Part shown: positions 1-13,842 of the stretch, piece after piece
Layout: every line of letters begins with the position of its first letter
Position numbering within the stretch: position 1 is the first letter of the stretch
From: Bacteroidota bacterium
Lineage (GTDB): Bacteria > Bacteroidota > Ignavibacteria > UBA10030 > UBA8401
Assembly: GCA_030679145.1 (NCBI GenBank)
Contig: JAUXTU010000050.1
Coordinates: 1 to 35,927, forward strand
Length of the DNA: 35,927 nt
Direction of reading: 5' to 3'
Position numbers and translations under genes: made by a program
The notes under the pieces: generated by a model
What the model saw: only the letters and a program-made list of their open reading frames with translations
The model's database searches: none
What the model was told of the DNA's origin: nothing

Positions 1-2847
1 GGTCAAGGTGCTATCATTGCAACAGGTGCAATCGGTTATGATGCAGCGCATCAGGGAATGTCTACACAAACGTTGTCTGCTCTTGGTGTCAGCAAGGTGA
101 TGAGTATTACGTGCACGTACGATCATCGTGTCATCCAAGGAGCAGAGTCAGGACAATTCTTGCAATATATTCACACGTTGATCAATGGAGAAGAAAAATT
201 CTATGACGATCTTTTTTCTGATCTTCATATTCCATTCACATCTGTCAAATGGTCAAGCGATGTAACATCGATTGGTTTAGGTAATGCTGATCAGGAAATT
301 GTGGAAAAACAAGCACGTGTGCAGCAGCTTGTCAATGCTTATCGCGTTCGTGGGCATTTGATCGCTCATCTTGATCCGCTTGTTGACGAACCAAAGAATC
401 ATCCTGAACTTGATCCAAATTATTATGGATTGACAGTGTGGGATCTTGACAGAGAATTTTTATTCTCGAACAAAGAAGGATACTCAAAACTTCCGCTTCG
501 CGATATTCTCGACATCCTTTACGCGACATATTGCGGATCCATCGGTGTTGAATTCATGAATATTCAGGATCCGGAGCAGAAGAAGTGGCTCATTCAAAAA
601 ATGGAACCGTCGCGGAATCGTCCGCCGCTTCCTCGTGAACGAAAATTGCAATTATTGAAGGTATTGATCCATGCCGAAGGATTTGAGCGATACCTTCATA
701 CAAAATTTGTCGGACATAAGCGTTTTTCTCTTGAAGGCGCAGAATCGTTCATGACAATTCTTGATGTTGTTCTTGATGAACTTGCGGATACCGGCGGTGA
801 ACGTGTTGTTATTGGTATGGCGCATCGCGGACGATTGAATGTTCTTGCGAACACCATCGGGAAATCATTGGCAAGAATTTTCTCTGAGTTCGAAGGAAGC
901 GTCGATCCGAAAACGATTCAAGGTTCCGGCGATGTGAAGTATCACCTTGGCGCGCACGGAATTCATCGAACATTAAATGGAAAAGAAATTACCGTTGAAG
1001 TTGCACCAAATCCAAGTCATTTAGAAGCGATCAATCCTGTTGTTGAAGGAATGGTTCGTGCTATGCAAGATAGAGTTGTGGACAGCGAACGGAAAAAAGC
1101 CATTCCGATTCTTGTTCATGGAGATGCGGCTTTTGCGGGACAGGGAATTAATGCCGAAATACTTAATCTTTCTCAGCTCAAAGGATATCGAACAGGCGGA
1201 ACGATCCACATTATCATTAATAATCAAATTGGTTTTACAACATCGCCCGATGATGCGCGTTCAACCCCATATTGCACGGATGTTGCAAAGATGGTTCAAG
1301 CTCCAATTTTCCATGTGAACGGTGATAATCCTGAAGCGTGCGCACGTGTAGCTTCATTGGCAGTTATATATCGTAATACATTCAAAAAAGATGTCGTGAT
1401 CGATATGTTCTGCTATCGTAAATACGGACATAATGAAGGTGACGAACCAAGTTATACACAACCGTTGTTGTATAAAAAAATCAAGAATCAGCCATCAACA
1501 CGTGAAATTTACGGCGACCGTTTGATCTTAGACAAAGAATTGACTCGTGAAGAACTTGAACAGATGCAGCAAGACGCAAAATCACGATTTGAACGTGCAC
1601 ACGAAGCATCGCACAAACGTGAAATGCATTTAAAGGCGGAGATTGCACTCGCAGTCACACAAGAGCAAATTGAAGCGATGCAGCCATTCAGAGAAACTAA
1701 AGTTTCGTTCGATGTGCTGCGGGAAGTTGCAGAAAAACTCGGAACAGTTCCACCAAGTTTCGCAGTCAATTCAAAATTGGTAAAAATGTTGGAGTTAAGA
1801 CATAAATTTTCTTCTGAAACAAAGATCGATTGGGGATTTGCAGAAGCATTGGCGTTCGGTACGCTGATGTATGAAGGAAACGATGTCCGGTTAAGCGGCG
1901 AAGATGTCGGTCGCGGAACGTTCAGCCATCGCCACGCAATTTTGTATGATGCAAATACCGGTGATGAGTTCATTCCGTTGGAACATGTGCGTGACGGGCA
2001 GGGAAAATTCCATGCGTTTGACAGTCTGCTTTCTGAATATGCAATTCTCGGATATGAATTCGGTTACAGCGTTTCCGATCCGCTCTCGTTGGTTCTGTGG
2101 GAAGCACAGTTCGGAGATTTTGCAAATGGTGCGCAAGTGATCATCGATCAGTTCATCGCCGCCTCAGAAGCAAAATGGCAGCAGCCGTGCGATCTTGTGC
2201 TTCTGCTCCCGCACGGATATGAAGGACAGGGACCGGAACATTCCAGTGCGCGGCTTGAACGATATTTGCAATTGTGCGGAGAAGATAATATGCAGGTCTG
2301 CAATCTCTCAACCCCGGCGCAATATTTCCATGTGCTTCGCAGGCAGATGCGCGATGCAAAACGGAAACCGTTGATCATGATGACGCCGAAAAGTCTCCTT
2401 CGTCACCCGTTAGTGATATCGACTCCCGAAGATTTCACTGAAGGGAAATTCAATCTTGTTATTGATGATGCGAATGCAGTTCCGGCAAAGGTAAATCGCG
2501 TTGTGTTATGTTCTGCAAAAGTTTATTACGATGCATTGCAGATGCATCGCGAACAAAAACTGGACAATGTTGCAGTAGTTCGTGTAGAACAATTCTATCC
2601 ATATCCGGAAAAAGAATTGAGAGCAATCGCAGAAAAATATTCCAATGCGCCGGATGTAGTTTGGCTGCAGGAAGAACCGAAGAACATGGGAGCGTGGCAT
2701 TTCCTTGCCGACAGGATTCGCGAAACAATCCTTCCATCGCAAAAATTACGATATGCGGGGCGCTCAGCTTCGGCAAGTACCGCTACCGGTTCACTGAAAC
2801 GTCATCAAATGGAACAGGAAGAAATGCTGAAAGATGCGTTGTTGTAG
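1..2847 (+). CDS. kgd: Multifunctional 2-oxoglutarate decarboxylase/dehydrogenase, E2-E1 fusion (5' partial)
   Basis: The reading frame is open from base 1, so the gene starts before the window; 948 codons are visible. The first 60 or so codons are the end of a dihydrolipoyl succinyltransferase-type (E2) catalytic domain, with the TYDHRVIQGAESG motif and its catalytic His at window codon 42. The rest is a complete-looking E1o part: AHRGRLNVLANT, HLGAHG, the thiamine diphosphate motif starting GDAAFAGQG near codon 374 and ending in NN about 27 residues later, then SGEDVGRGTFSHRH and LLPHGYEGQGPEHSSAR in the pyrimidine-binding domain. This E2-to-E1 order is that of mycobacterial Kgd. The enzyme decarboxylates 2-oxoglutarate with thiamine diphosphate and feeds succinyl groups to CoA in the TCA cycle. 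The N-terminal part and any lipoyl domain cannot be judged. Confidence 0.95.
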   Translation, partial: GQGAIIATGAIGYDAAHQGMSTQTLSALGVSKVMSITCTYDHRVIQGAESGQFLQYIHTLINGEEKFYDDLFSDLHIPFTSVKWSSDVTSIGLGNADQEIVEKQARVQQLVNAYRVRGHLIAHLDPLVDEPKNHPELDPNYYGLTVWDLDREFLFSNKEGYSKLPLRDILDILYATYCGSIGVEFMNIQDPEQKKWLIQKMEPSRNRPPLPRERKLQLLKVLIHAEGFERYLHTKFVGHKRFSLEGAESFMTILDVVLDELADTGGERVVIGMAHRGRLNVLANTIGKSLARIFSEFEGSVDPKTIQGSGDVKYHLGAHGIHRTLNGKEITVEVAPNPSHLEAINPVVEGMVRAMQDRVVDSERKKAIPILVHGDAAFAGQGINAEILNLSQLKGYRTGGTIHIIINNQIGFTTSPDDARSTPYCTDVAKMVQAPIFHVNGDNPEACARVASLAVIYRNTFKKDVVIDMFCYRKYGHNEGDEPSYTQPLLYKKIKNQPSTREIYGDRLILDKELTREELEQMQQDAKSRFERAHEASHKREMHLKAEIALAVTQEQIEAMQPFRETKVSFDVLREVAEKLGTVPPSFAVNSKLVKMLELRHKFSSETKIDWGFAEALAFGTLMYEGNDVRLSGEDVGRGTFSHRHAILYDANTGDEFIPLEHVRDGQGKFHAFDSLLSEYAILGYEFGYSVSDPLSLVLWEAQFGDFANGAQVIIDQFIAASEAKWQQPCDLVLLLPHGYEGQGPEHSSARLERYLQLCGEDNMQVCNLSTPAQYFHVLRRQMRDAKRKPLIMMTPKSLLRHPLVISTPEDFTEGKFNLVIDDANAVPAKVNRVVLCSAKVYYDALQMHREQKLDNVAVVRVEQFYPYPEKELRAIAEKYSNAPDVVWLQEEPKNMGAWHFLADRIRETILPSQKLRYAGRSASASTATGSLKRHQMEQEEMLKDALL

Positions 2848-2887
2848 CGTTTGCAATTCATGAAATAAATTCTGACCTTTAATAAAA

Positions 2888-3094
2888 ATGGATTCATTGA
2901 ACCACATAGACAAGTCAAAAGTATCGACTGTTTCTCTTCATGATGAATCAGATGAGAAAGAATATTGGTTGAAACGAACACCCGAAGAACGGTTATTCAT
3001 GGTCGAAACACTTCGCCGAAGGAATTTTGGCAATGCAGCAACTTCCAAACGACTTCAAAGAATTCTTACGTTTGCTGAATTTCCACAAGGTTGA
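2888..3094 (+). CDS. Small hypothetical protein, resembles partners of nucleotidyltransferases
   Basis: This is a 68-residue, charged, soluble protein 40 bp after kgd. Its core, EYWLKRTPEERLFMVETLRR followed by an RLQRIL segment, resembles short proteins that usually sit directly upstream of AbiEii/MNT-type nucleotidyltransferase genes and are thought to be their antitoxins. That likeness is from memory of the family, not a search. No nucleotidyltransferase follows: the frame ends at a palindromic repeat and a terminator. It may be an orphan antitoxin or the remnant of a pair. The start is the first ATG; no good Shine-Dalgarno sequence is visible. Confidence 0.55.
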   Translation: MDSLNHIDKSKVSTVSLHDESDEKEYWLKRTPEERLFMVETLRRRNFGNAATSKRLQRILTFAEFPQG

Positions 3095-3118
3095 ATATCT
3101 CCTTCTATCTAAATACTG

Positions 3119-3162
3119 TCATTCCCGCGTTACGAAGTGATCCCTTTGGGAAAAGCGGGAAT
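3119..3162. repeat. Nested palindromic intergenic repeat
   Basis: Arms ATTCCCGC (3121-3128) and GCGGGAAT (3155-3162) enclose a smaller hairpin TCCC-TTT-GGGA (3141-3151). It begins with TGTCATTCC, like the longer elements at 5920-6017 and 6592-6693, so it is probably a degenerate or short member of that dispersed family. Confidence 0.6.
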
Positions 3163-3170
3163 CCAGAAAC

Positions 3171-3199
3171 AAAAACGCTCCCATTTGGGAGCGTTTTTG
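3171..3199. terminator. Bidirectional rho-independent terminator
   Basis: This is a perfect 13-bp stem: AAAAACGCTCCCA (3171-3183) pairs with TGGGAGCGTTTTT (3186-3198). It has a tract of T on each strand. It lies between the convergent kgd/2888-3094 unit on the plus strand and the 3319-4224 gene on the minus strand, where it can end both transcripts. Confidence 0.9.
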
Positions 3200-3269
3200 T
3201 TATGGGAACATTGTGTTTTAGATACTCTGGTTCTTATTTGCTACGCGAAGTGAAGTTTCGTTTAATGGG

Positions 3270-3295
3270 CGTTCCCAACGGGGGCGTTGGGAACG
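3270..3295. repeat. Inverted repeat CGTTCCCAACG
   Basis: CGTTCCCAACG (3270-3280) and CGTTGGGAACG (3285-3295) form a perfect 11-bp stem with a 4-nt loop. No T tract follows, so it is more like a repetitive extragenic palindrome than a terminator. It is the second hairpin in this convergent gap. Confidence 0.65.
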
Positions 3296-3318
3296 AGATG
3301 AATGGTTGGGTGTGCTGT

Positions 3319-4224
3319 TTATTTTTTTGGAATGGCATTTAGCATTTCAAAAATCCGTTTAAGAGCATCAGAATAACTTACTAGAATTGTTTGCCAAGAC
3401 TTATCATAATTTTTGATAGGATATGCCAGCCCAAAAAATCGATGGGCATCTTGAACTCCATCTGCTGTATCGGTATGTATAGGATAAGCTTGACGTAATC
3501 TGTTTATGGATCTAAGAACTTTAATTGAAGTATCATCATAATCTGGAGATTGTTTAAGATAGGCTTCCAACAAATTAATCGAACCCGTTTTATCTGTTTG
3601 GACAGAATTATTAAGCAATTCTTCATTCATGTTTATTGCTATATTTTTAAGAGCACTCATTCGATACACAAATTCTTCTTCTGTTTTTGCCTCTCTAAAT
3701 AACTGAAGCAGGTCTCTCTCACTCAATAATGAAAGTATCTTTCCTCCAAGTTTTTCTTTTGCAACTCCATTAATATAATCTCTCGTTTCGATAATATTTG
3801 TTGCTAATTGCATATATGAAAGATTTTCCATAATTGGAGTTCCTAATATCTCGATTTCAAAAGAATCTCCAGTTTTCATATTTATCTTACTGGATTCAAA
3901 AGGAGACGCCTGAGGTTGCGAAGATGTACTCAGCCATAGTTCTTCTTTCTGGAGAATAGTACCTTCCCTGATTTTTTCCGAGATATGACGTTTTGAAAAT
4001 TCATAGAGCACTTTCATAACATCAAGAAAAGCGTCGTGATAAGCCCACATAACATGAAGTGTTCCCGTAATAGACGCTTTAATTGTGACATATTCAATTG
4101 ATGATTTCTCTTCAGGCATTCCGATGAGATTAGAATCAGTAATACTAAAATCAAATACACACTCTATGGCATCGCGTTGTTTTGGTAAATAAATTCCTCC
4201 GAGAAATTTGACAGTTTTTTTCAT
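3319..4224 (-). CDS. Hypothetical cytosolic protein with a HEPN-like R-x5-H motif
   Basis: This 301-residue protein has no signal peptide or membrane segment. I do not recognise the family. The N-terminal half (about 1-135) looks beta-rich, with a conserved-looking YVTIKASITGTLHVMWAYHD stretch. The C-terminal half is helical and contains NRLRQAYPIH (241-250), an R-x5-H arrangement fitting the Rx4-6H signature of HEPN ribonucleases, followed by HRFFGLAYPI and a final amphipathic helix. The gene is isolated, flanked by repeats on both sides, and looks richer in A and T than its neighbours, which suggests an accessory gene. The motif is short and the HEPN idea is an inference. ATG start at 4224. 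Confidence 0.7.
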   Translation of the reverse strand: MKKTVKFLGGIYLPKQRDAIECVFDFSITDSNLIGMPEEKSSIEYVTIKASITGTLHVMWAYHDAFLDVMKVLYEFSKRHISEKIREGTILQKEELWLSTSSQPQASPFESSKINMKTGDSFEIEILGTPIMENLSYMQLATNIIETRDYINGVAKEKLGGKILSLLSERDLLQLFREAKTEEEFVYRMSALKNIAINMNEELLNNSVQTDKTGSINLLEAYLKQSPDYDDTSIKVLRSINRLRQAYPIHTDTADGVQDAHRFFGLAYPIKNYDKSWQTILVSYSDALKRIFEMLNAIPKK

Positions 4225-4408
4225 TTATTTTGAGATTTATTGATGCGCACCTAACTAGTAATTATATGAGCTCACTCCGTATTTTTGTCGAAACTGCAAG
4301 ATCAGATATTCGGAATGATATCAATTTTCTTTTATGTGCCGAAATGTATCTTCTTTTTGTGAGAGTAGCAATTGGTTGTCTTTCGCGGTGATTACGACAA
4401 TACGATAG

Positions 4409-4455
4409 AACCTTGTCAAGGTTTTGCGAAAGATACGGCAAACCTTGACAGGGTT
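4409..4455. repeat. Imperfect inverted repeat AACCTTGTCAAGG
   Basis: AACCTTGTCAAGGTTTTGC (4409-4427) is an imperfect reverse complement of GCAAACCTTGACAGGGTT (4438-4455), with one substitution and one extra base. Each arm also contains a short palindrome of its own, CCTTG-T-CAAGG (4411-4421). It has the form of a dispersed intergenic palindrome. Confidence 0.65.
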
Positions 4456-4470
4456 GATTTATATTTACAC

Positions 4471-4636
4471 ACCACCCCTGACGCTGCGCCTGCCTTCGCC
4501 GAAACGAAGCATCGGCTTCGTGTTTACGCGCCGAAACGTTTCAACACGCAGGCGTGCAGGCAGGCGTCTGTCCCCTCCTTAATAAGGAGGGGACTTACTG
4601 ACTCAAGATCATTTGGAAATAGTAATCAGGGGTGGT
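4471..4636. repeat. Nested palindromic (MITE-like) element
   Basis: The outer arms are ACCACCCCTGA (4471-4481) and TCAGGGGTGGT (4626-4636), perfect over 11 bp. Inside are CGAAGC/GGCTTCG-type and GCCTGC/GCAGGC-type hairpins, and a perfect 12-bp stem GTCCCCTCCTTA (4570-4581) with TAAGGAGGGGAC (4583-4594). No transposase frame is present. The design matches the element at 35565-35727. Confidence 0.7.
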
Positions 4637-4652
4637 TGAGAAGAATACGTTG

Positions 4653-4683
4653 TTTGACTTTATTCCAAAAATCTGTATCTTTG
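4653..4683 (+). promoter_or_regulatory. Bacteroidota-type promoter for the PorV-like gene
   Basis: TTTG (4653-4656), a 19-nt spacer and TATCTTTG (4676-4683) match the Bacteroidota housekeeping consensus TTTG / TAnnTTTG. The predicted transcript start near 4688-4690 gives a leader of about 140 nt before the ATG at 4829. This is the best promoter match in the window. Confidence 0.7.
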
Positions 4684-4712
4684 AAAAGAACAAAGGAGAT
4701 ACACAGCAGAAC

Positions 4713-4769
4713 AATTGTTAGAGATTTTCAAAAATAATGATTTCAGTTTCAATTATTTCTCTAACAATT
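4713..4769 (+). promoter_or_regulatory. Leader hairpin, possible part of an attenuator
   Basis: AATTGTTAGAGA (4713-4724) and TCTCTAACAATT (4758-4769) form a perfect 12-bp stem. Its 3' arm contains TCTCTAAC (4758-4765), which could instead pair, with one G-U pair, with GTTGGAGA (4791-4798) inside the following terminator loop. Confidence 0.5.
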
Positions 4770-4771
4770 TC

Positions 4772-4813
4772 AACCGAATTTCACTCAAGCGTTGGAGAGA
4801 GATTCGGTTTTTT
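4772..4813 (+). terminator. Terminator-like hairpin immediately before the PorV-like start codon
   Basis: AACCGAAT (4772-4779) pairs with ATTCGGTT (4802-4809), followed by a T run to 4813. It lies between a good promoter and the ATG 15 nt downstream, with no gene upstream on this strand to terminate. An attenuator, or the end of a short leader RNA, is the natural reading. Confidence 0.55.
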
Positions 4814-4828
4814 CATTTTTGAGGCGTT

Positions 4829-5890
4829 ATGAAATTAAGAAGTGCAGCTTTTCTGTTGATGATTATATCATCGTTGTCGTATTCCCAAACATTTGGGAAA
4901 TATGCCGGTGAGTTTATGTCAATTGGTATCGGCGGGCGTGCATTGGGCGTAGGAAGTGCTTACGCGGCGATTGCAAATGATGTCACTGCATCATACTGGA
5001 ATCCTGCCGGACTTGCACGTATAGAATATCCGCAAATTGCAATTTCGCACGACGAACGCTATGGCAATCTCATCAATTATGATTATGCAGCATTTGCCTT
5101 TCCTTCAGGAACGAACACGATCAATCTTGAAACGCAGGAAAATGAATATAATGCCGCTTCGTTTGGTATCAGTATCATCAGACTTGGTATAGATGGAATT
5201 CCGGATACGCGTAAAGCATGGGCAGACAGCAACGGCAACGGATTGTTTGATGATGGGATAAATCTTCGCCCGGATTATAATGCTATCACATTCTTTAATG
5301 CCAGCGATTGGGTTGCGTATCTTACCTATGCAAAACAATCTTCTGAAAATTTATTTTACGGAGCGAATGTAAAACTTATCCGTCGTAATATCGGAGAATT
5401 TCACGGAACAGGAATTGGATTTGATGTTGGTGTTCAATATCTGGCAACGGAAAGTCTTGTGCTTGGTGCAAATCTGCAGGATGCGACAACTACATTAGTC
5501 TCATGGAATACAGGAACGAATGAACTTATTTCGCCGACGCTCAAACTTGGAGCAGCATATTTTCTTGAAATCTTTAACGGAAAATTGACTCCCGCTGTCG
5601 GCACTGACGTTCGCTTTGAAAATAGAAGATTTTCCGCTGTTGCAAATGTCGGTCCAATCAGTTTTGATCCGCAGGTGGGAGTTGAATTCGATTACAAAAA
5701 TATTGTTGCTGTTCGCGCAGGATACAATGATATCGGAAACATTACTCTTGGAGCCGGTATACATTTACGCAAATTGGATATTGATTATTCCTTCGCAAAA
5801 TTCGATGCAGCCGATCAGCTTGGCAACACTCACCGAATCTCACTCCGACTTACATTAGAAGAAGAAAAGTATCGCCGTGGCGCGGAATAA
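4829..5890 (+). CDS. PorV/PorQ (UPF0164)-family outer-membrane beta-barrel protein
   Basis: This 353-residue protein starts with a signal peptide (MKLRSAAFLLMIISSLSYSQ). The segment that follows, FMSIGIGGRALGVGSAYAAI and then WNPAGLA, is the hallmark beginning of PorV/UPF0164 proteins. The remainder is alternating beta-strand sequence ending in a typical terminal strand (RISLRLTLEEEK). Family members are FadL-like barrels; PorV works with the type 9 secretion system as an outer-membrane shuttle, while others have no known role. No other type 9 genes are in the window, so a secretion role is not claimed. GAGG at 4821-4824 serves as ribosome-binding site. Its transcription probably passes through the leader structures at 4713-4813. 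Confidence 0.85.
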   Translation: MKLRSAAFLLMIISSLSYSQTFGKYAGEFMSIGIGGRALGVGSAYAAIANDVTASYWNPAGLARIEYPQIAISHDERYGNLINYDYAAFAFPSGTNTINLETQENEYNAASFGISIIRLGIDGIPDTRKAWADSNGNGLFDDGINLRPDYNAITFFNASDWVAYLTYAKQSSENLFYGANVKLIRRNIGEFHGTGIGFDVGVQYLATESLVLGANLQDATTTLVSWNTGTNELISPTLKLGAAYFLEIFNGKLTPAVGTDVRFENRRFSAVANVGPISFDPQVGVEFDYKNIVAVRAGYNDIGNITLGAGIHLRKLDIDYSFAKFDAADQLGNTHRISLRLTLEEEKYRRGAE

Positions 5891-5919
5891 GTTTGTGTGG
5901 GTGATGAATGGTGGTTTAC

Positions 5920-6017
5920 TGTCATTTCGAGGCGTGGTGCGAAAAGCACCACGACGAGAAATCTCAATGATAGAACGAAATAATACGATGAGATTCCTCG
6001 CTGTGCTCGGAATGACA
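5920..6017. repeat. Dispersed TGTCATT...AATGACA palindromic repeat, copy A
   Basis: Terminal arms TGTCATTTCGAG (5920-5931) and CTCGGAATGACA (6006-6017) match at 11 of 12 positions. Inside are the hairpin GTGGTGC-gaaaa-GCACCAC and the blocks GAGAAATCT and GAGATTCCTC. The same blocks in the same order occur in the element at 6592-6693. The right end overlaps the beginning of the following lipoprotein gene. Confidence 0.8.
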
Positions 6018-6542
6018 ACAATAAGTTTATTTCTTTCTTCCTGTTCTTCATCGATACCGGCATCAAAACCAATTGCGCCATCAATAAAAAAAACTGCACC
6101 CACAATAACTGTTGCAAAACAATTTGTGCCTGAAGGCTGGGCAGATATAACTTCAAAATCGAGCCGACCGGAGATAAAATATTGGCTCTTGAATCATGCC
6201 AATTCAGCAACAATGGTTCTGCGTGAATTTCAAACTGATTCTTCATCTCAAAAATCTTTGATGAAAGAAGAATTGAATGTTATAACGAACATTTCACTCC
6301 TGTCTAAACTTCCTGAAAATAATTCTGATTATCGTGTTACACGCATTCCGGCAGTTATTGATGTGAAGAGAAATTTCTTTTCGTATGCGTATTCCGAGAA
6401 AGGATTATTGCGCCGCGTAGTTGTCTTTAAGAAACAACAGAAATATTTCGAATTGGAATTGATGCAGGAACGGTCGTCTGCGGAATTTGATGAACTGACA
6501 AACGATCTACTGACTTTTGCGGTAACATTATACGAACGATAA
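5988..6542 (+). CDS. Putative lipoprotein with repeat-derived signal peptide
   Basis: This 184-residue protein of unknown function begins MRFLAVLGMTTISLFLSSC: an Arg, a hydrophobic stretch and the lipobox LSSC with Cys19, as in lipoproteins. A Ser/Pro/Lys-rich linker follows, then a compact mixed alpha/beta domain. Start choice: the frame runs upstream in phase to 5877, but the extra 37 codons are dispersed-repeat sequence and would bury the signal peptide, so ATG 5988 is preferred. No Shine-Dalgarno sequence is visible. The start codon and first ten residues lie inside the repeat at 5920-6017. It follows the PorV-like gene by 97 bp and may be co-transcribed with it. Confidence 0.7.
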   Translation: MRFLAVLGMTTISLFLSSCSSSIPASKPIAPSIKKTAPTITVAKQFVPEGWADITSKSSRPEIKYWLLNHANSATMVLREFQTDSSSQKSLMKEELNVITNISLLSKLPENNSDYRVTRIPAVIDVKRNFFSYAYSEKGLLRRVVVFKKQQKYFELELMQERSSAEFDELTNDLLTFAVTLYER

Positions 6543-6591
6543 GAAAGATGTCTGACATCTTCTAGAAAAGGTCTCAAAAATACCCAATCAT

Positions 6592-6693
6592 TGTCATTTC
6601 GATCCCGCTTTAGCGGGAGAGAAATCTTGTTTTATGCTAAAAATAAAAACGAGATTCCTCACTTGTCCCTTCGGGACTTCGTTCGGAATGACA
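6592..6693. repeat. Dispersed TGTCATT...AATGACA palindromic repeat, copy B
   Basis: TGTCATTTCGA (6592-6602) and TTCGGAATGACA (6682-6693) are the ends. Inside are the hairpin CCCGCT-tt-AGCGGG, GAGAAATCT, GAGATTCCTC and the hairpin GTCCC-ttc-GGGAC. It lies between the convergent lipoprotein and cyclase genes. A further small palindrome, AAGATGTC-t-GACATCTT (6545-6561), precedes it. No strong terminator is seen in this gap. Confidence 0.8.
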
Positions 6694-6725
6694 ATAAAAT
6701 CCATTTTTGAGAACATTTCTAATAA

Positions 6726-8951
6726 TTATTTTGTCTTCAATTCAAACACGCCATTCCAATCCTTTGGCGGCGGTTTTTTACTGTATGCCTGCGAGCGAAG
6801 AAGATAAAGCTTCGATGGTCCATCGTTCGGATTGATCTTGAGTGCAAATTGGAACTCTTCGACTGCTTTTTTGAAAAGCCGCTTTCGATATAACAAGATC
6901 CCGAGATTATAAATTTCTATCAGTTCTTTCATCTCATCACTTATGGGATTCTTCAAATCAGCCACAAGTTCAAATATTCGGATCGGCTCCGTTTTCCCTT
7001 TTACGATCAGATAATCAAGCTCGCGGCACAAAAATTCTTCCTTGACCAAAATCCACGTTCGTTCACTGATCATAATTCGAGTACCGTACGTTTTGTTGGC
7101 ACCTTCCATGCGTGAACCGAGATTGACTGCGTCACCGATAACCGTATAATCGAATCTTGCCGATCCGCCCACATTGCCGACAACCATATAATCAGTATTC
7201 AATCCCATACGAACGACAAGTGTAGGTTTTCCTTCTTTTTCCCAACGGAGAGCGATCTCCTGAACTTTTTCCTGCATTTGCACAGCTGCTCTGCATGCAT
7301 GTAACGCATTATTTGGTAATTCCATCGGAGCACCCCACACTGCCATAACAGCGTCACCAACATACTTGTCAAGTGTACCGTTGTTCTTAAGAATAATATC
7401 TGTCATCGAACTCAGATATTCATTCAGGATGTGGACGAGATCAACAGCATCAAGTTTCTCTGCGAACGTTGTGAACGATGCAATATCAGAAAAGAAGACG
7501 GTCAATTCTTTTTTCTCTCCGCCCAAACGAAGTTTTTCAGGATGAGCGATCAATTCATTGACAACAGAAGGATTCAGGTACTGACTGAACATTCCTTTGA
7601 TCATCGTTTTTTGTTTTCGCTCGGTCAAATATTGATAGACTGCGCTTCCGATATAATTGAGAATGATCGCGGCGATCGGAGTAACAACCGGAAAAACAAG
7701 ATTGTGTTGTGCAAACGTGTAGTATGAAACGCTTAGAACTCCATCGATCATTCCGGCTACGATAATAATGGCAACGATCTCTACCATGAATGCATATTGT
7801 GTTTTAAACAGTTTTAACCAGGTAACAAGACTGAACGTAACCATGGAAAGAAGTATAATCAGCAGTGATTCCTTCCACACGGAAAGTTTAACGAGATAAT
7901 TTTGATGAATAAGGGTTTGAAGTGCATTGGCGTGCAGTTCAACGCCGTACATCAGATTGCGATCACTTAATCCTTTTTCTGATATGGAAACATTGAACAG
8001 ATCTTTTGATTCGGAAAAATACGGTCCAATAAGAACGATCTTGTTCTTAAATATTCCATCATTCATCAATCCGATATCTGGATCATCAAACATATTGATG
8101 GATGTGTTCAGTTCACGTTCTTCATTGGTCTGGAAAGTTGAATCATCGAGAATATTAACAATATCAAACACCTTGAACGTTTTTCCTGCTTGCCCGTGAT
8201 AATTGATAAGCATGGAGACGTCATCATATTTTGGGATATGATTGTCGCCAACGATAAATTCATTGTCCGTGATCGTTGCATACGTTGCTGAAGGAAGACC
8301 AAGTGCTTTATTAAGCAAACTAAAAGCAAAGGAAGGAATATACCGTTCTTGATTTGGTACCTTTGCAAAAGGCATATACCGGCGATAGATTCCGTCAGCA
8401 TCATTGGGCACAAACACGCTTCCAACGGAACTGTCGGCGGCATAGAATATCGAATGAAAATTCTCATCCTCACGGTTTGTCACTGCATCATCATTCCGAA
8501 AATCAGTTTTCCCTGCAACAACTACGTTCCTGTACTGCTGGATTGTTTTGAACAATTCATCATCGTGATGCGGTCCATTTTGATCAGGCTGTTCAAACGT
8601 GAGATCGATTCCAATTGCCTTCGCTCCGGCGTGATTTAGATTACGGACTGCTCTTGCATAGTAACTTCTGGGGAAGGGAAATCTGTCCGGGACAGTCGTT
8701 TCCGAAAGCTCTGATATTGAAACGATAATCACTTCAAGTGAATCTTTAGAATAGGGGAGCGGACCGCGATTTTCAAACGAACGGTCGATAAATGAAAGTG
8801 CAGTTCGGTCAAAAAAACCAAAATGAAAAAATGGATCTTGCACGAAAAGAATAACGATACAGGCGATACCGATACTTGCTGCGATTCGCGGCAACCAAGT
8901 TCGGAAACGACGATCTGCTTGAGGTTTTGCAGTGGGGTCAGATTGGATCAT
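6726..8951 (-). CDS. CHASE2-domain adenylate cyclase with C-terminal TPR
   Basis: This 741-residue membrane sensor cyclase has a first membrane helix at about 20-38, an extracytoplasmic CHASE2 domain (about 45-355), and two or three membrane helices (about 360-440). A class III nucleotide cyclase domain follows (about 480-660), then a TPR-like segment (about 675-725). Catalytic residues are in place: metal-binding Asp489 (FFSDI) and Asp533 (YVGDAVMA), Lys529, Thr603 in the adenine-specifying position (DYTVIGDAVN), Asn610 and Arg614. The Lys/Thr pair is typical of class IIIb adenylate cyclases, which favour ATP and are often bicarbonate-responsive. It should make cAMP in the cytoplasm in response to a periplasmic signal. 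It starts 1 nt after the stop of the preceding outer-membrane gene, so the two are translationally coupled. Confidence 0.92.
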   Translation of the reverse strand: MIQSDPTAKPQADRRFRTWLPRIAASIGIACIVILFVQDPFFHFGFFDRTALSFIDRSFENRGPLPYSKDSLEVIIVSISELSETTVPDRFPFPRSYYARAVRNLNHAGAKAIGIDLTFEQPDQNGPHHDDELFKTIQQYRNVVVAGKTDFRNDDAVTNREDENFHSIFYAADSSVGSVFVPNDADGIYRRYMPFAKVPNQERYIPSFAFSLLNKALGLPSATYATITDNEFIVGDNHIPKYDDVSMLINYHGQAGKTFKVFDIVNILDDSTFQTNEERELNTSINMFDDPDIGLMNDGIFKNKIVLIGPYFSESKDLFNVSISEKGLSDRNLMYGVELHANALQTLIHQNYLVKLSVWKESLLIILLSMVTFSLVTWLKLFKTQYAFMVEIVAIIIVAGMIDGVLSVSYYTFAQHNLVFPVVTPIAAIILNYIGSAVYQYLTERKQKTMIKGMFSQYLNPSVVNELIAHPEKLRLGGEKKELTVFFSDIASFTTFAEKLDAVDLVHILNEYLSSMTDIILKNNGTLDKYVGDAVMAVWGAPMELPNNALHACRAAVQMQEKVQEIALRWEKEGKPTLVVRMGLNTDYMVVGNVGGSARFDYTVIGDAVNLGSRMEGANKTYGTRIMISERTWILVKEEFLCRELDYLIVKGKTEPIRIFELVADLKNPISDEMKELIEIYNLGILLYRKRLFKKAVEEFQFALKINPNDGPSKLYLLRSQAYSKKPPPKDWNGVFELKTK

Positions 8952-8952
8952 T

Positions 8953-11322
8953 TTAGAAATCTATTCGATACATCAGACTTACATAAGAATCGTTTTTGCT
9001 TGTAACAGTAGAAGATAGAGCGGTCGACGAATTTGCAATGAATTGGAATTGCAATACCGCTGATTGATGCTCAGTAATTGAATATGCCAAACTTGATTCG
9101 AGCATCGTTCGTGCAAAATCTCCAAACGTGGGAGCAAACGTTGCGTTCAACCGCAGAATATCTTCGATAATTTTATAACGGCCGCTTAGTGATAGTGTTT
9201 GATATGCCAACGACGATTGTTCCGTAATTTGACTCACCGGATTGAATTGAGGGAATTTTAAACTGCTGATTCCAAACCCTACAGTGCTTTCCAATCGTGG
9301 ACCGTGCACAGTGCTTACAAGAATCGAAGTATTGAACGTTGATATTCCTTGCTGTTTAATGGTATTGTCCGTTTTATCAGAAACGTCAAGATTGAACGCC
9401 GCGTTATGCCTTCCCCAATAAATAAAATCGTATGAGGTCTGCAGGAAATATCTATTTGTTTTATCATCAAGGGCGCGAAGGGCAGTTTGTTTCTCTACGG
9501 AACTTTTATTTGTCGTGTCTGAAGGGAGGGGATTTGAATTTTTATTCAATCCATATCCAACGGTGATATTTGGTAAACTACTCGATGGATAATAGGAAAC
9601 CGACGCATTTATTGCATTATATGTTGTTGTTGTAATTTCGTTCCGTGCAGTATTGTTCTGCAATTGCTCATAACTTCCGGTAACGAATAATCTGTTCTCA
9701 AGAAGCCGAATACGATCGGTGATATTGAATCCTTTGATGTCTTTTCGCAGCGAGGATGCCCCTGCTGATGAATAATGTTTTCCATGGAACAAATAGGAAG
9801 CCTTCAAATAATTACCAAAGTAATTGAATGACAATGCGGTTTCATAAACCACGGATGTTCCGCCGATCGGATTTTGCGGTTCAAATGATCCATTAACGGT
9901 GATGATCTTTTCAAGATACGGAAGGAACCGTTTTAGATTTTCGAGGTCACTTTTTTTGCTTGGATCCCGAACGATCGCCGAATCAATACTATCTCTGTTA
10001 AATGGTCCGGTTGAGATATCGAGATTATTCAAACTAAAAGCACTTTGAGCAGTGAATTCAATTCTTCGGTCGTCGAGTGCAACAAAAAAATCGGTACCAA
10101 ACACAACATTCTCCTGGGGGTTAACAGGCATTATTTTTGAAGAGTCAAATGTATCTTTTGCTTTCAAATACGTAAAGCCCCATTGGAATTTTTCGCCCTT
10201 TCCAAAACTTGGCCGAACAACGGTCATTTTTCTTTGCAATGTTTGCTGAGTCGAGTTTATTTCCACACCGCGGGTCAGTTCGCCGTTTGCAATGTTCACA
10301 TTAAACGCACCTAGCAACAGATCGAATGTGAATCCTCGAAGTCTTCTTCCATCCATTATAGTATACGGAAAGCGGGGATATGCATCTCCAAGACCTAATT
10401 TTGCATATCGTGCATCAAGACCAAGATAATAACGGTTCTGAGGTTGGTTCTCCGGTTTTTCTTCCGAAGAAAGAGTTAATTGAGCATTTGCTCTTAAAAA
10501 TTTTGCATACGTTCCGAATGCGCGAGCGTCAAGACGGTTGTATGTCTTTTTTGAGCCTTTAATATTTTCATTGCGTGATTCTGCCTGGGCATTTCCGTAT
10601 CCTTGAAATGCACTTTCAACCTCTTCAGCCTGTTGAGTGGTGAGAACAGTGAACCCTCGTTGTAATGTCGCATACGGAGTTCCATCAGCAGTGAATGTTT
10701 GCACAGAGAGATTTGCTCCGCCCGTCATTGCAGTTGAAGGAATTGCTTCCGGTGGAACGATCAGAAGATCATCAAAGAAAACAATCTTGTCAGAAAGATC
10801 AACTCCGTTTAATTGAATTGTTGTTTTTGATTTGTCAACAATAGTATCGGCATACACGAATGAAAGTGAAATATATGTTTCACCTTCTTTGATGTTTTCT
10901 CCCTCTTCAGGGCTTAAGATGATTATTTCCGATTCGTATTTCGGTTTGAGGTCGATGTTTATTCGTGCAGGATTGATCTGCGGATTTTCCATCGGAAATG
11001 TTTCTGATGTTCCGTTGTGGGTTGTAGCAACAATATATACTTCAATGAATGGAGGAAGTATTTCATGTGCAGAGATTTCCGTGACCGCTGAATCTCGTAA
11101 CAGTTGCATTTCAAGTGATCGGAAATCGGTCTGTCCGAATTGACGATAGAAAAGCTCAACACGCGAAAGCTCAGAAGAAGATTGAAGTCCAACCGAAACC
11201 ATCAACGGCTGTTGTTCGATGGTATTTTTTGGATTGATCCCTTTGATGTATGTATTCAGTTGTGCAGAAACTTGAATGAAACATACTAGACTGAATGTAA
11301 AAAGAAGAGAAGTAAATTTCAT
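8953..11322 (-). CDS. Large secreted outer-membrane-type beta-barrel protein of unknown function
   Basis: The chosen start gives 789 residues beginning with the signal peptide MKFTSLLFTFSLVCFIQVSA and Gln21. An in-frame upstream start at 11418 would add 32 residues that cross the terminator hairpin at 11341-11394 and hide the signal peptide, so it is rejected. The N-terminal third carries Ig/fibronectin-like beta sequence (TIQLNGVDLSDKIVFFDD and neighbours). From about residue 285 the protein is a long series of amphipathic strands (RYYLGLDARYAKLGLGDAYP and onward), ending in a Phe-terminated strand (YVSLMYRIDF) as expected for an outer-membrane barrel. No TonB plug is seen. Placed between the FecR-domain gene and the CHASE2 cyclase, it may be the surface component of the signalling unit (inference). 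Confidence 0.75.
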   Translation of the reverse strand: MKFTSLLFTFSLVCFIQVSAQLNTYIKGINPKNTIEQQPLMVSVGLQSSSELSRVELFYRQFGQTDFRSLEMQLLRDSAVTEISAHEILPPFIEVYIVATTHNGTSETFPMENPQINPARINIDLKPKYESEIIILSPEEGENIKEGETYISLSFVYADTIVDKSKTTIQLNGVDLSDKIVFFDDLLIVPPEAIPSTAMTGGANLSVQTFTADGTPYATLQRGFTVLTTQQAEEVESAFQGYGNAQAESRNENIKGSKKTYNRLDARAFGTYAKFLRANAQLTLSSEEKPENQPQNRYYLGLDARYAKLGLGDAYPRFPYTIMDGRRLRGFTFDLLLGAFNVNIANGELTRGVEINSTQQTLQRKMTVVRPSFGKGEKFQWGFTYLKAKDTFDSSKIMPVNPQENVVFGTDFFVALDDRRIEFTAQSAFSLNNLDISTGPFNRDSIDSAIVRDPSKKSDLENLKRFLPYLEKIITVNGSFEPQNPIGGTSVVYETALSFNYFGNYLKASYLFHGKHYSSAGASSLRKDIKGFNITDRIRLLENRLFVTGSYEQLQNNTARNEITTTTYNAINASVSYYPSSSLPNITVGYGLNKNSNPLPSDTTNKSSVEKQTALRALDDKTNRYFLQTSYDFIYWGRHNAAFNLDVSDKTDNTIKQQGISTFNTSILVSTVHGPRLESTVGFGISSLKFPQFNPVSQITEQSSLAYQTLSLSGRYKIIEDILRLNATFAPTFGDFARTMLESSLAYSITEHQSAVLQFQFIANSSTALSSTVTSKNDSYVSLMYRIDF

Positions 11323-11340
11323 TCGAAATAACGTTTGTGA

Positions 11341-11394
11341 GAAAAAAGAAATCGCTTGCAATCTATTAAAAGGAGTAAAGAGTTGCAAGCGATT
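11341..11394 (-). terminator. Intercistronic terminator-like hairpin in the FecR/cyclase cluster
   Basis: AATCGCTTGCAA (11383-11394, read on the minus strand) and its perfect 12-bp complement (11350-11361) enclose a 21-nt loop. They are followed on the minus strand by TTCTTTTTTC. It lies after the FecR gene and before the outer-membrane gene, so it could end or reduce transcription into the cyclase pair. The long loop makes its strength uncertain. Confidence 0.65.
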
Positions 11395-11434
11395 GATGGA
11401 AGTGATCGAAAAATCCATTCACCAATATGGGAGA

Positions 11435-12529
11435 TTATTTATATTCTATTATCATTGTCTTTCGTTTTCCGCTCGGATCGGTAAATGGTACACGAAGCTC
11501 GTTCTTTTGACCTGTTTGTACCGCAAAACTGATCGGATTCGATTCAGGTGAGGGAGTCGGAGAACTAAATTGAGAACCATCCAGTAATGTTATGACGGCG
11601 TAAACCTGAATACTTGGCGCAGAAACATCAGACCCGGGGATTGAAAATTTTGCGGTGCGTTCTGACAATTTTTCTTTGAGCATTTTGTAAGGCTGATCTG
11701 CTTTTGTACGATAGTACAATGTAAAATCAGAGACAGAATTCTTTAGTGAATCGGTTGTAACTGAGGATTGATTGACCTCAACCGTTATTACAAGATTTTG
11801 CCCTTCTTTGCCGATTGGCGCATTTACGGTCAATCCAAGAGTAATTCCGCTGGTTGAAGTAGATGTCGAAGTATCGGATTTTGAACCGCCTTGATTGTTC
11901 CCTTCAGATTTTGTGCTGTCTGCAGATCCTTGGTTCAACAATCGCTTTTCCTCGGGTGTTGAATCTTCAACTTTTACTGTTCCATCAGGCATTGAAAATG
12001 CCGTCTGCCCGCCTCTGACATTCAATATTATGTTTGAAATGAGATTCTTAAAATCAACATTTCCGCTTCCAAGAATCAACACATCGTTGCTGTCTTGTCC
12101 CGCAATCAATAATCCGCCGGTGCCGCGAATGGAAGCCACTGATGTTGGAGTTGAGAACTCGAATTTTTCATTCGCTCTCTTTTTCACTTGAAATCCAACT
12201 TCACCGCGCTGCAAATATACATTCTTTGAAAATTCACCCTTTGCAATTTCGCCGCTGATTGTTACTTCCGATTTTTCTTGAACACGGATAACGGAGTTTT
12301 CTAAAAATTTTATGATTGCAAATGAATTTTCCTGTGTTCGTACAATGTCCCCGGGAATGAGCGGCGTGGCTGCTTTGGCTTTGCTCCACTCTTTTTCTCC
12401 TGTCTTATACTCTACACCGCCGACAGGTTTGAATATTGTTGCAACCGGTTTTTTCTTTTGAGCGATTGAAAAATCTGTTATGCTCAATGAAAGAATTAAC
12501 ACGAAAATAATTTTTAATAGAAAGTTCAT
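11435..12529 (-). CDS. Secreted FecR-domain protein
   Basis: This 364-residue protein has a signal peptide (MNFLLKIIFVLILSLSITDFSIAQ). A FecR domain at about 30-165 is recognisable from WSKAKAATPLIPGDIVRT, YLQRGEVGFQV and the TPTSVASIRGTGGLL stretch. A Ser/Thr/Gly/Asn-rich linker (about 195-225) leads to an Ig-like C-terminal domain. Unlike anti-sigma FecR proteins it has no cytoplasmic anti-sigma part or internal membrane helix, and no sigma factor gene is near; it is probably periplasmic or surface-attached. AGAGGA upstream of the ATG serves as ribosome-binding site. Only 11 nt separate it from the preceding gene, and the CHASE2 cyclase lies downstream. Confidence 0.85.
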   Translation of the reverse strand: MNFLLKIIFVLILSLSITDFSIAQKKKPVATIFKPVGGVEYKTGEKEWSKAKAATPLIPGDIVRTQENSFAIIKFLENSVIRVQEKSEVTISGEIAKGEFSKNVYLQRGEVGFQVKKRANEKFEFSTPTSVASIRGTGGLLIAGQDSNDVLILGSGNVDFKNLISNIILNVRGGQTAFSMPDGTVKVEDSTPEEKRLLNQGSADSTKSEGNNQGGSKSDTSTSTSTSGITLGLTVNAPIGKEGQNLVITVEVNQSSVTTDSLKNSVSDFTLYYRTKADQPYKMLKEKLSERTAKFSIPGSDVSAPSIQVYAVITLLDGSQFSSPTPSPESNPISFAVQTGQKNELRVPFTDPSGKRKTMIIEYK

Positions 12530-12540
12530 GGTCGTTCCTC

Positions 12541-13713
12541 TTAATCTTCAAATCGTACAGAAATAATGCTATTCTTCTTTTCCAATAATAATTTTTGAAG
12601 GTCCTGTGGGCTTAAAATAACACCGTTCAATGTTATTCCATTTGCATTCAGTTGAAGATTTTGATCTTGAATAAGATTGAATATATCTTGGAATTCGCCG
12701 CTGCTGAAAGTTGTCTGCAAAATATTCACAACAACTTGCCCCTGAGGATCGGAAATAATGAACGATCGTATCGTGCGGATCGGGTCAACCTCAAAGCCAA
12801 ATGCTGTGGAAATTCCATCAAGAACAACTACATACATTTTTCCGCGCTCAAGTTGACGAACTCCGCCGGTAAATTCAACAATACCTGGTTGACTGACCGC
12901 AGTTTGAGGATAAGTAAATGAGGAGATATTTGTGGGAATTTTTCTTTCTCCAGGACGGCCGATCAATCTAAAAATTTGAACTTGAAGGTATGGTGCCGAT
13001 GAACCGATCGCATCTTCCAATGATTGGTGTTCCGGTCGCAATTCATAGACCGATAATTTTACCGACCGTGTATCATATGTCCATTGAAATTGCGGGAATG
13101 GAGTTGGATAGACATATCCATTCGAGAACGGAACGTCAAGGACTGCTGTGGTTGGATTGGTTACATTGATTGATCGTTCTATTACGATCGGTGTTTCTTG
13201 TTTTGGAACTCCTCCAACAGAATCTACGGTGATTGTAATTTTTATTTCATATAAACCGGACGGGACTCTGCCGCCGCTTGTTGTTTCTAAAATTTTATCT
13301 TTTAATTTCTTTTTCAAATCTTCGTTGACGGTATGGTCAATGTCAATATCTGAGGAAGGATTATCAGCATCCCTGCTGGTAAATGTTCTACCATCTTTTG
13401 GAATTAAGAATGGTTTTTTTGTTTTTGCTTTTCCGCTTCCACCAAAAATTGATTCCTTAGAACGATCTTCTTCAAGTGTCACATATGCTTCAATCGTCAT
13501 ACTTGCTTTGATAGGAAGTTGTGGGTTGTTGATAAATCTCAAAGAAAAACTTGTCGGGGCAATATCCATGATCTTTTCCGCAAGCGGATCGACAAGAACT
13601 GATGCGTTAATGATATCTGCATCCGTTATCGTTGGAGTCACGACAAGTGATTGTCCGAAACCGAACGACCAAATTGAAATGACAAATGCGATTGGTAGAA
13701 ATAGTTTTTTCAT
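12541..13713 (-). CDS. Secreted hypothetical protein with Ig-like region
   Basis: This 390-residue protein has a signal peptide (MKKLFLPIAFVISIWSFGFGQ). The chosen ATG at 13713 has a strong GGAG ribosome-binding site (13721-13724 on the opposite strand). The frame extends to 13779, but that would put 22 polar residues before the signal peptide. The body is beta-rich; around residues 210-235, PYPTPFPQFQW-type sequence (seen as YPTPFPQFQWTYD) resembles Ig/fibronectin modules of secreted FCB proteins. The final 40 residues are Gln/Leu/Asn-rich. No catalytic motif was recognised. First gene of the minus-strand cluster that leads through FecR to the cyclase, so probably an envelope partner. Confidence 0.75.
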   Translation of the reverse strand: MKKLFLPIAFVISIWSFGFGQSLVVTPTITDADIINASVLVDPLAEKIMDIAPTSFSLRFINNPQLPIKASMTIEAYVTLEEDRSKESIFGGSGKAKTKKPFLIPKDGRTFTSRDADNPSSDIDIDHTVNEDLKKKLKDKILETTSGGRVPSGLYEIKITITVDSVGGVPKQETPIVIERSINVTNPTTAVLDVPFSNGYVYPTPFPQFQWTYDTRSVKLSVYELRPEHQSLEDAIGSSAPYLQVQIFRLIGRPGERKIPTNISSFTYPQTAVSQPGIVEFTGGVRQLERGKMYVVVLDGISTAFGFEVDPIRTIRSFIISDPQGQVVVNILQTTFSSGEFQDIFNLIQDQNLQLNANGITLNGVILSPQDLQKLLLEKKNSIISVRFED

Positions 13714-13785
13714 AGCTCTTCTCCTTTTTTCTCCATTCAAAATAGACAATTTTATCTTTTGCACTGTGTTAATCATCACTCACTA

Positions 13786-13834
13786 TTTGACCGTCACCTT
13801 TAAGATCTACGACCTCGTAAAGGTGACGGTCAAA
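13786..13834. repeat. Perfect 17-bp inverted repeat TTTGACCGTCACCTTTA
   Basis: TTTGACCGTCACCTTTA (13786-13802) and TAAAGGTGACGGTCAAA (13818-13834) are perfect complements around a 15-nt loop. It lies between rseP and the next minus-strand gene. There is no T tract on the minus strand, so it is a weak candidate for a terminator. The GTTGACCGTCACCTT core recurs at 35737-35769, showing a dispersed family. Confidence 0.75.
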
Positions 13835-13842
13835 TTAAATTC

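Follow-up and report, generated by a model that had tools for sequence, protein, structure and literature searches.

Do three exported proteins and a CHASE2 adenylate cyclase that are encoded side by side form one route from the cell envelope to cAMP? The question is raised by four genes, here called IG, FECR, BAR and the CHASE2 cyclase gene, which follow each other in this order on the minus strand of the window, i.e., the whole stretch of 35,927 nucleotides that was analysed. An earlier note on this DNA had proposed, as the simplest reading, that the envelope proteins report to CHASE2, which in turn sets cAMP, and had derived this shared function from gene order and spacing.

The four genes and their products

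The description of the locus given in the earlier note has held. The ORF list contains the four minus-strand frames with the same ends, and the gaps, previously put at 11, about 110 and 1 nt, measure 11, 112 and 1 nt, the last of them being the distance from the end of BAR to the start of the cyclase gene. The features are as follows:

12541-13713, minus strand: IG, 390 aa (ORF list, Pfam, AlphaFold2 model)
11435-12529, minus strand: FECR, 364 aa (Pfam, orthologue alignment)
12104-12346, minus strand: FecR domain PF04773, FECR residues 62-142 (E 1.5e-10)
11465-11830, minus strand: Ig-like domain of FECR (BAR profile match, E 2.8e-13)
11350-11394, minus strand: terminator-like hairpin in the 112-nt FECR-BAR gap, with a T-rich tail to about 11342
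8953-11322, minus strand: BAR, 789 aa from the ATG (AlphaFold2, fold comparison)
8956-10608, minus strand: barrel region of BAR, residues 271-821 of the long frame (predicted model)
6726-8951, minus strand: CHASE2 adenylate cyclase, 741 aa (Pfam, motif alignment, cyclase tree)
7836-8834, minus strand: CHASE2 domain, residues 40-372 (Pfam E 8e-45), predicted periplasmic
6984-7514, minus strand: class III cyclase domain, residues 480-656 (Guanylate_cyc 1.1e-24; CyaB 3r5g E 5e-42)
6822-6911, minus strand: TPR-like repeat at the cyclase C terminus, residues 681-710 (E 9.5e-5, below the Pfam cut-off)

The cyclase was correctly recognized before as a CHASE2 sensor cyclase with a complete set of catalytic residues. 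It has a single N-terminal hydrophobic segment (residues 18-47) and a further cluster of such segments at residues 353-438, with CHASE2 in between; this predicted arrangement, CHASE2 flanked by membrane segments, is that of a CHASE2 receptor. The motifs FFSDI (486-490), LDKYVGD (527-533) and DYTVIGDAVNLGSR (601-614) align with those of Pseudomonas CyaB. K529 and D533 are invariant (82 of 82 sequences), position 601 is D in 73 of the 82, and the window cyclase has N610 and R614. As judged from these residues, the enzyme has what a class III cyclase needs to use ATP, and cAMP production is predicted. The genome also encodes nine cNMP-binding domains, which are possible cAMP readers.

The other three proteins are exported, as had been claimed: IG, FECR and BAR each have an N-terminal Sec-type signal peptide and no other membrane helix. 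In FECR this signal peptide stands where an anti-sigma part would be, in agreement with the former description of its FecR domain as free of such a part. This FecR domain, the only one in the genome, was found in 20 of 20 aligned FECR orthologues, and a domain search of the protein returned FecR, a weak DUF7354 match and nothing else. What the orthologues have in common is the FecR domain and a short C-terminal tail; the Ig part is optional. Judged by the profile match listed above, the Ig-like domain of FECR and the N-terminal Ig domain of BAR are homologous.

Neither IG nor BAR gave a Pfam match above the cut-off. The model of IG (AlphaFold2 pLDDT 87.9) shows two domains of the Ig/FN3 type, at about residues 21-186 and 187-322, and a helical tail. 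An assignment of IG to DUF928 was considered, as one member matched at E 0.0045, and was rejected with 0 matches over the cut-off in 41 genomes.

The open frame of BAR reaches 11418, and the ATG that gives 789 aa is followed by a good signal peptide. The model (AlphaFold2 pLDDT 86.1) comprises N-terminal Ig-like domains and a barrel whose predicted strand count, taken from the secondary structure of the model, is about 26 (from residue 271 onward, 23 long strands and 3 short ones). Among solved structures, the best match to it is MtrB from the Mtr complex (6r2q_B, Z 20.1, rmsd 4.5, 453 residues), followed by TonB receptors and porins with Z near 17; the usher FimD is also among the matches. 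Resting as it does on a predicted model, this similarity to MtrB, usher and TonB receptor folds marks BAR as a big barrel and says nothing of its function. By sequence, BAR matched solved structures with its Ig part only, the match being the Ig domain of a peptidylarginine deiminase. The possibility that BAR is an MtrB by sequence was also rejected, since 0 of 26 BAR members match Pfam MtrB_PioB.

Three elements had escaped the earlier note, namely the hairpin in the FECR-BAR gap, the Ig-like domain common to FECR and BAR, and the TPR-like repeat at the C terminus of the cyclase. As for the surroundings, the immediate conserved neighbours of the cluster are genes for a PorV-like protein, RseP and DXR. 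On the plus strand (4829-6542), two genes converge on the cluster, one of the PorV/PorQ family and one for a small exported protein; both are conserved there in many relatives. Between rseP and IG, at about 13780-13835, lies a long near-perfect inverted repeat (TTTGACCGTCACCTTTA ... TAAAGGTGACGGTCAAA).

Conservation of the cluster

In a first search, 55 of 60 relatives were positive for BAR, and the order IG-FECR-BAR-cyclase appears around these genes. Among named genomes, 80 BAR loci were found; most come from Ignavibacteria or Bacteroidetes MAGs, others from Stygiobacter electus and a Melioribacter roseus MAG. For a stricter count we have taken the 50 Ignavibacteria loci with enough flank on both sides and run the profiles on all their frames: the four genes lie on one strand and in the same order in 47 of them, FECR and the cyclase are present in all 50, and IG was missed by the profile in three. 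Homologues of the exported proteins are therefore not found mostly away from CHASE2 or FecR genes, which is the outcome that the note's reading called for. Across the order, BAR proteins are about 32-35% identical to that of the window. In the wider phylum the BAR profile matches 86 of 247 genomes, some of them partially, and the full cluster in the same order was found in 13 of 20 sampled distant loci from other families.

One sister lineage (two families, six genomes) has the genes dispersed. IG and FECR are still paired there, and BAR and CHASE2 genes are retained elsewhere. The cyclase tree places two of the dispersed cyclases (L215, L217) beside clustered copies, inside the clade of the cluster cyclases and apart from the paralogues; this suggests an original cluster that was dissolved there, with its parts retained. 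Within the class, 19 genomes lack BAR, and neither FecR over the cut-off (0/19) nor full-length IG (0/19) was found in them, while CHASE2 is present in 12 of the 19; the losses in these genomes are not all independent. Two contigs of one assembly (L111 and L124) carry a BAR each, with a second IG just after BAR in L111; this is perhaps a duplicated cluster.

The genome of the window has four CHASE2 genes, i.e., that of the cluster and three further ones. The exported neighbours of these three are quite different, and neither FecR nor BAR stands beside any of them. One of these cyclases (L035, G000:C114), like a paralogous CHASE2 cyclase at L216 (G142:C36), lies near an exported SH3-M48 peptidase-like gene (Pfam for L035 only), and this is perhaps a second conserved pairing of CHASE2 with the envelope. 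At a second locus (L037, G000:C23, positions 1654-6863), the cyclase adjoins a DUF4384 protein and a WD40-caspase protein on one strand. The third cyclase (L036, G000:C43, positions 4290-11053) comes after an outer-membrane-like, a CsgG-like and a weakly transglutaminase-like TPR protein. On the Sphingobium plasmid pMSHV (L208), a CHASE2 cyclase has a CHAT-domain protein on one side and, one gene further, an FhaC-type transporter on the other, which is possibly another envelope partner.

A hairpin between FECR and BAR

The hairpin in the FECR-BAR gap has a stem of at least 12 pairs and folds better than shuffled sequences (z -3.9), and, having a long loop, it is not listed by a standard terminator scan (loop of up to 8). 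Members of its own family conserve the stem and show compensatory changes at its base. A terminator score that only 1% of shuffles reach is attained in the FECR-BAR gap of 34 of 83 distinct loci (about 40%).

The presence of a conserved hairpin in this gap speaks against a plain four-gene transcript. The hairpin ends about 20 nt ahead of the BAR start codon, leaving little room for a downstream promoter; a sigma-70 promoter scan was uninformative (18 sites observed versus 18.1 expected). The hairpin argues for unequal expression and against one uniform operon, and we read it as a putative conserved partial terminator that would lower BAR and the cyclase relative to IG and FECR. The shared function that had been drawn from order and spacing is upheld in part: the 47 intact loci among the 50 flanked ones and a published precedent (below) speak for it, and one lineage has the genes unlinked.

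Two close relatives (L038 and L041) retain only a decayed form of the family hairpin, and their gap carries another, perfect terminator further upstream. This looks like turnover of a conserved terminator function.

A proposed receptor pathway and its relation to known systems

A precedent for such a cluster exists in Sinorhizobium meliloti, where the nsrA gene overlaps cyaK. According to a domain search, NsrA combines a FecR domain (E 2.3e-15) with TPRs, and CyaK is a CHASE2 cyclase; the barrel is located at NsrA residues 600-1200 (PMC7529298). Two reports describe NsrA as an outer-membrane receptor required for the response of CyaK and CyaD1/D2 to plant signals (PMC7529298, PMC13001267), and a candidate for its signal is the ribosomal protein uL2 (PMC7529298). 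NsrA-CyaK is the one worked case of CHASE2 sensing, and it points to an outer-membrane receptor that addresses CHASE2 via the periplasm.

We propose, with a probability of roughly 0.66, that the cluster of the window encodes a single trans-envelope receptor pathway operating in the manner of NsrA-CyaK, with the receptor split. BAR would be an outer-membrane barrel of about 26 strands and provide the surface-exposed or pore part. FECR would be a periplasmic adaptor, probably docked on BAR, whose FecR domain would engage the periplasmic CHASE2; the docking is probable because both proteins carry the same Ig-like domain and because FecR and barrel form one chain in NsrA. IG, as the neighbour of FECR, would probably be a scaffold or a second periplasmic subunit. 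On a change of state in the outer-membrane part, CHASE2 would pass the signal across the membrane segments, and the cyclase would then make cAMP for the CRP-like proteins of the cell. The gap hairpin would allow a surplus of IG and FECR over BAR and the cyclase. The envelope-to-cAMP pathway of the earlier note has in this way gained a conserved unit and a precedent, and its contacts, direction, ligand and cAMP change are still what we infer. A broader claim is more tentative and, in our opinion, has somewhat less than an even chance of being right: that Bacteroidota possess a widely conserved, undescribed three-part envelope receptor acting on a CHASE2 cyclase, with an unusually large barrel as its surface part, separable FecR and Ig adaptors and a transcription brake by which the adaptors would outnumber the rest. 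A literature search on Ignavibacteria and adenylate cyclase found nothing relevant.

The same proteins could be arranged differently. BAR, FECR and IG might form a large-pore machine for the transport or export of a polymer, a protein or a metal, and the cyclase would then merely report on it or regulate its expression. We consider this unlikely. The solved matches of BAR, with MtrB as the best, then TonB receptors and the usher FimD, are transport or conduit barrels, and in some families BAR relatives occur away from CHASE2 genes; however, the cluster has no transport partner and no multihaem cytochrome (no CXXCH in any of the four proteins), known FecR domains belong to signalling proteins, and only 1 nt separates the cyclase gene from BAR. 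It is quite improbable that BAR is a porin admitting a small ligand that CHASE2 binds directly in the periplasm, with FECR and IG as modulators. The wide predicted barrel and the view of CHASE2 as a sensory domain would suit a porin, but the fusion of FecR and barrel in NsrA, together with the Ig domain common to FECR and BAR, favours a relay between proteins, and a reported signal of NsrA, uL2, is a whole protein (PMC7529298).

The slimmest chance is left to the idea that the four genes are adjacent by inherited synteny only and act separately. Part of the gene order may indeed be plain synteny, since the housekeeping genes rseP and dxr, and the PorV-like gene, are also conserved beside the cluster in many loci, and the dispersed lineage could be cited for the same idea. 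Nevertheless, at three loci (L046, L069 and L070) the four genes have other surroundings, the cluster is also found in other families of the phylum, and the paralogous cyclases of the window genome are flanked by quite different genes. The altered surroundings at these three loci, the loss of FecR together with BAR within the class and the retention of the dispersed parts all speak for a functional unit, in line with the receptor pathway that we prefer.

Compared with known systems, the receptor pathway proposed here comes closest to NsrA-CyaK. In both, the gene for an outer-membrane barrel (in the window, by prediction) lies directly upstream of a CHASE2 cyclase gene, FECR aligns with the FecR region of NsrA (E 3.5e-8), and the window cyclase is 29% identical to CyaK over most of its length. 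NsrA is, however, a single chain of 1200 aa with TPRs between FecR and barrel, whereas FecR and barrel are separate proteins in the window, where Pfam matches no TPR in BAR or FECR. Unlike NsrA-CyaK, the window has an Ig domain common to FECR and BAR, an additional protein with two Ig domains and a TPR-like repeat on the cyclase. Profile comparison detected no relation between BAR and the NsrA barrel (probability 0.1), bearing in mind that NsrA entered as a single sequence and that barrels diverge fast, and no homology of IG to NsrA. The likeness of the two systems is thus one of layout. We do not class the cluster as a member of the NsrA-CyaK type because its receptor is not one chain and barrel homology was not detected.

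In the FecA-FecR-FecI system, a periplasmic FecR domain works with an outer-membrane barrel as the receptor. The window differs from it in that FECR has no anti-sigma part and the output is a cyclase instead of a sigma factor. MtrB/PioB proteins share the large barrel fold of about 26 strands with the predicted model of BAR, but BAR has no MtrB_PioB Pfam match and the four proteins of the cluster have no CXXCH motif. In Campylobacterota, a CHASE2 cyclase cluster includes a FecR-domain outer-membrane protein; unlike the cluster described here, it has genes for a TPR protein and a cAMP phosphodiesterase as well, and its FecR domain is reported to reside in the outer-membrane protein itself (PMC9239204). 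In the BiofilmReg operon of Burkholderia, the neighbour of the CHASE2 sensor is likewise an exported FecR protein, but one with LysM; the sensor there is a histidine kinase accompanied by a response regulator, and no barrel is described (PMC5192318). In magnetotactic bacteria, mtxA lies ahead of a CHASE2 cyclase gene (PMC4439547); in a search of solved structures with the FECR profile, MtxA was a weak, non-significant match (E 0.078).

What is new here is most likely the split version of an NsrA-like layout, which has a barrel of no detected relation to that of NsrA and an Ig protein in addition. If the pathway is true, a large unnamed barrel family that is present in most of the sampled Ignavibacteria would gain a function. 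Moreover, as the logic of NsrA-CyaK would be laid out here in separate genes, in a branch that includes cultured species, each link could be removed or tagged singly.
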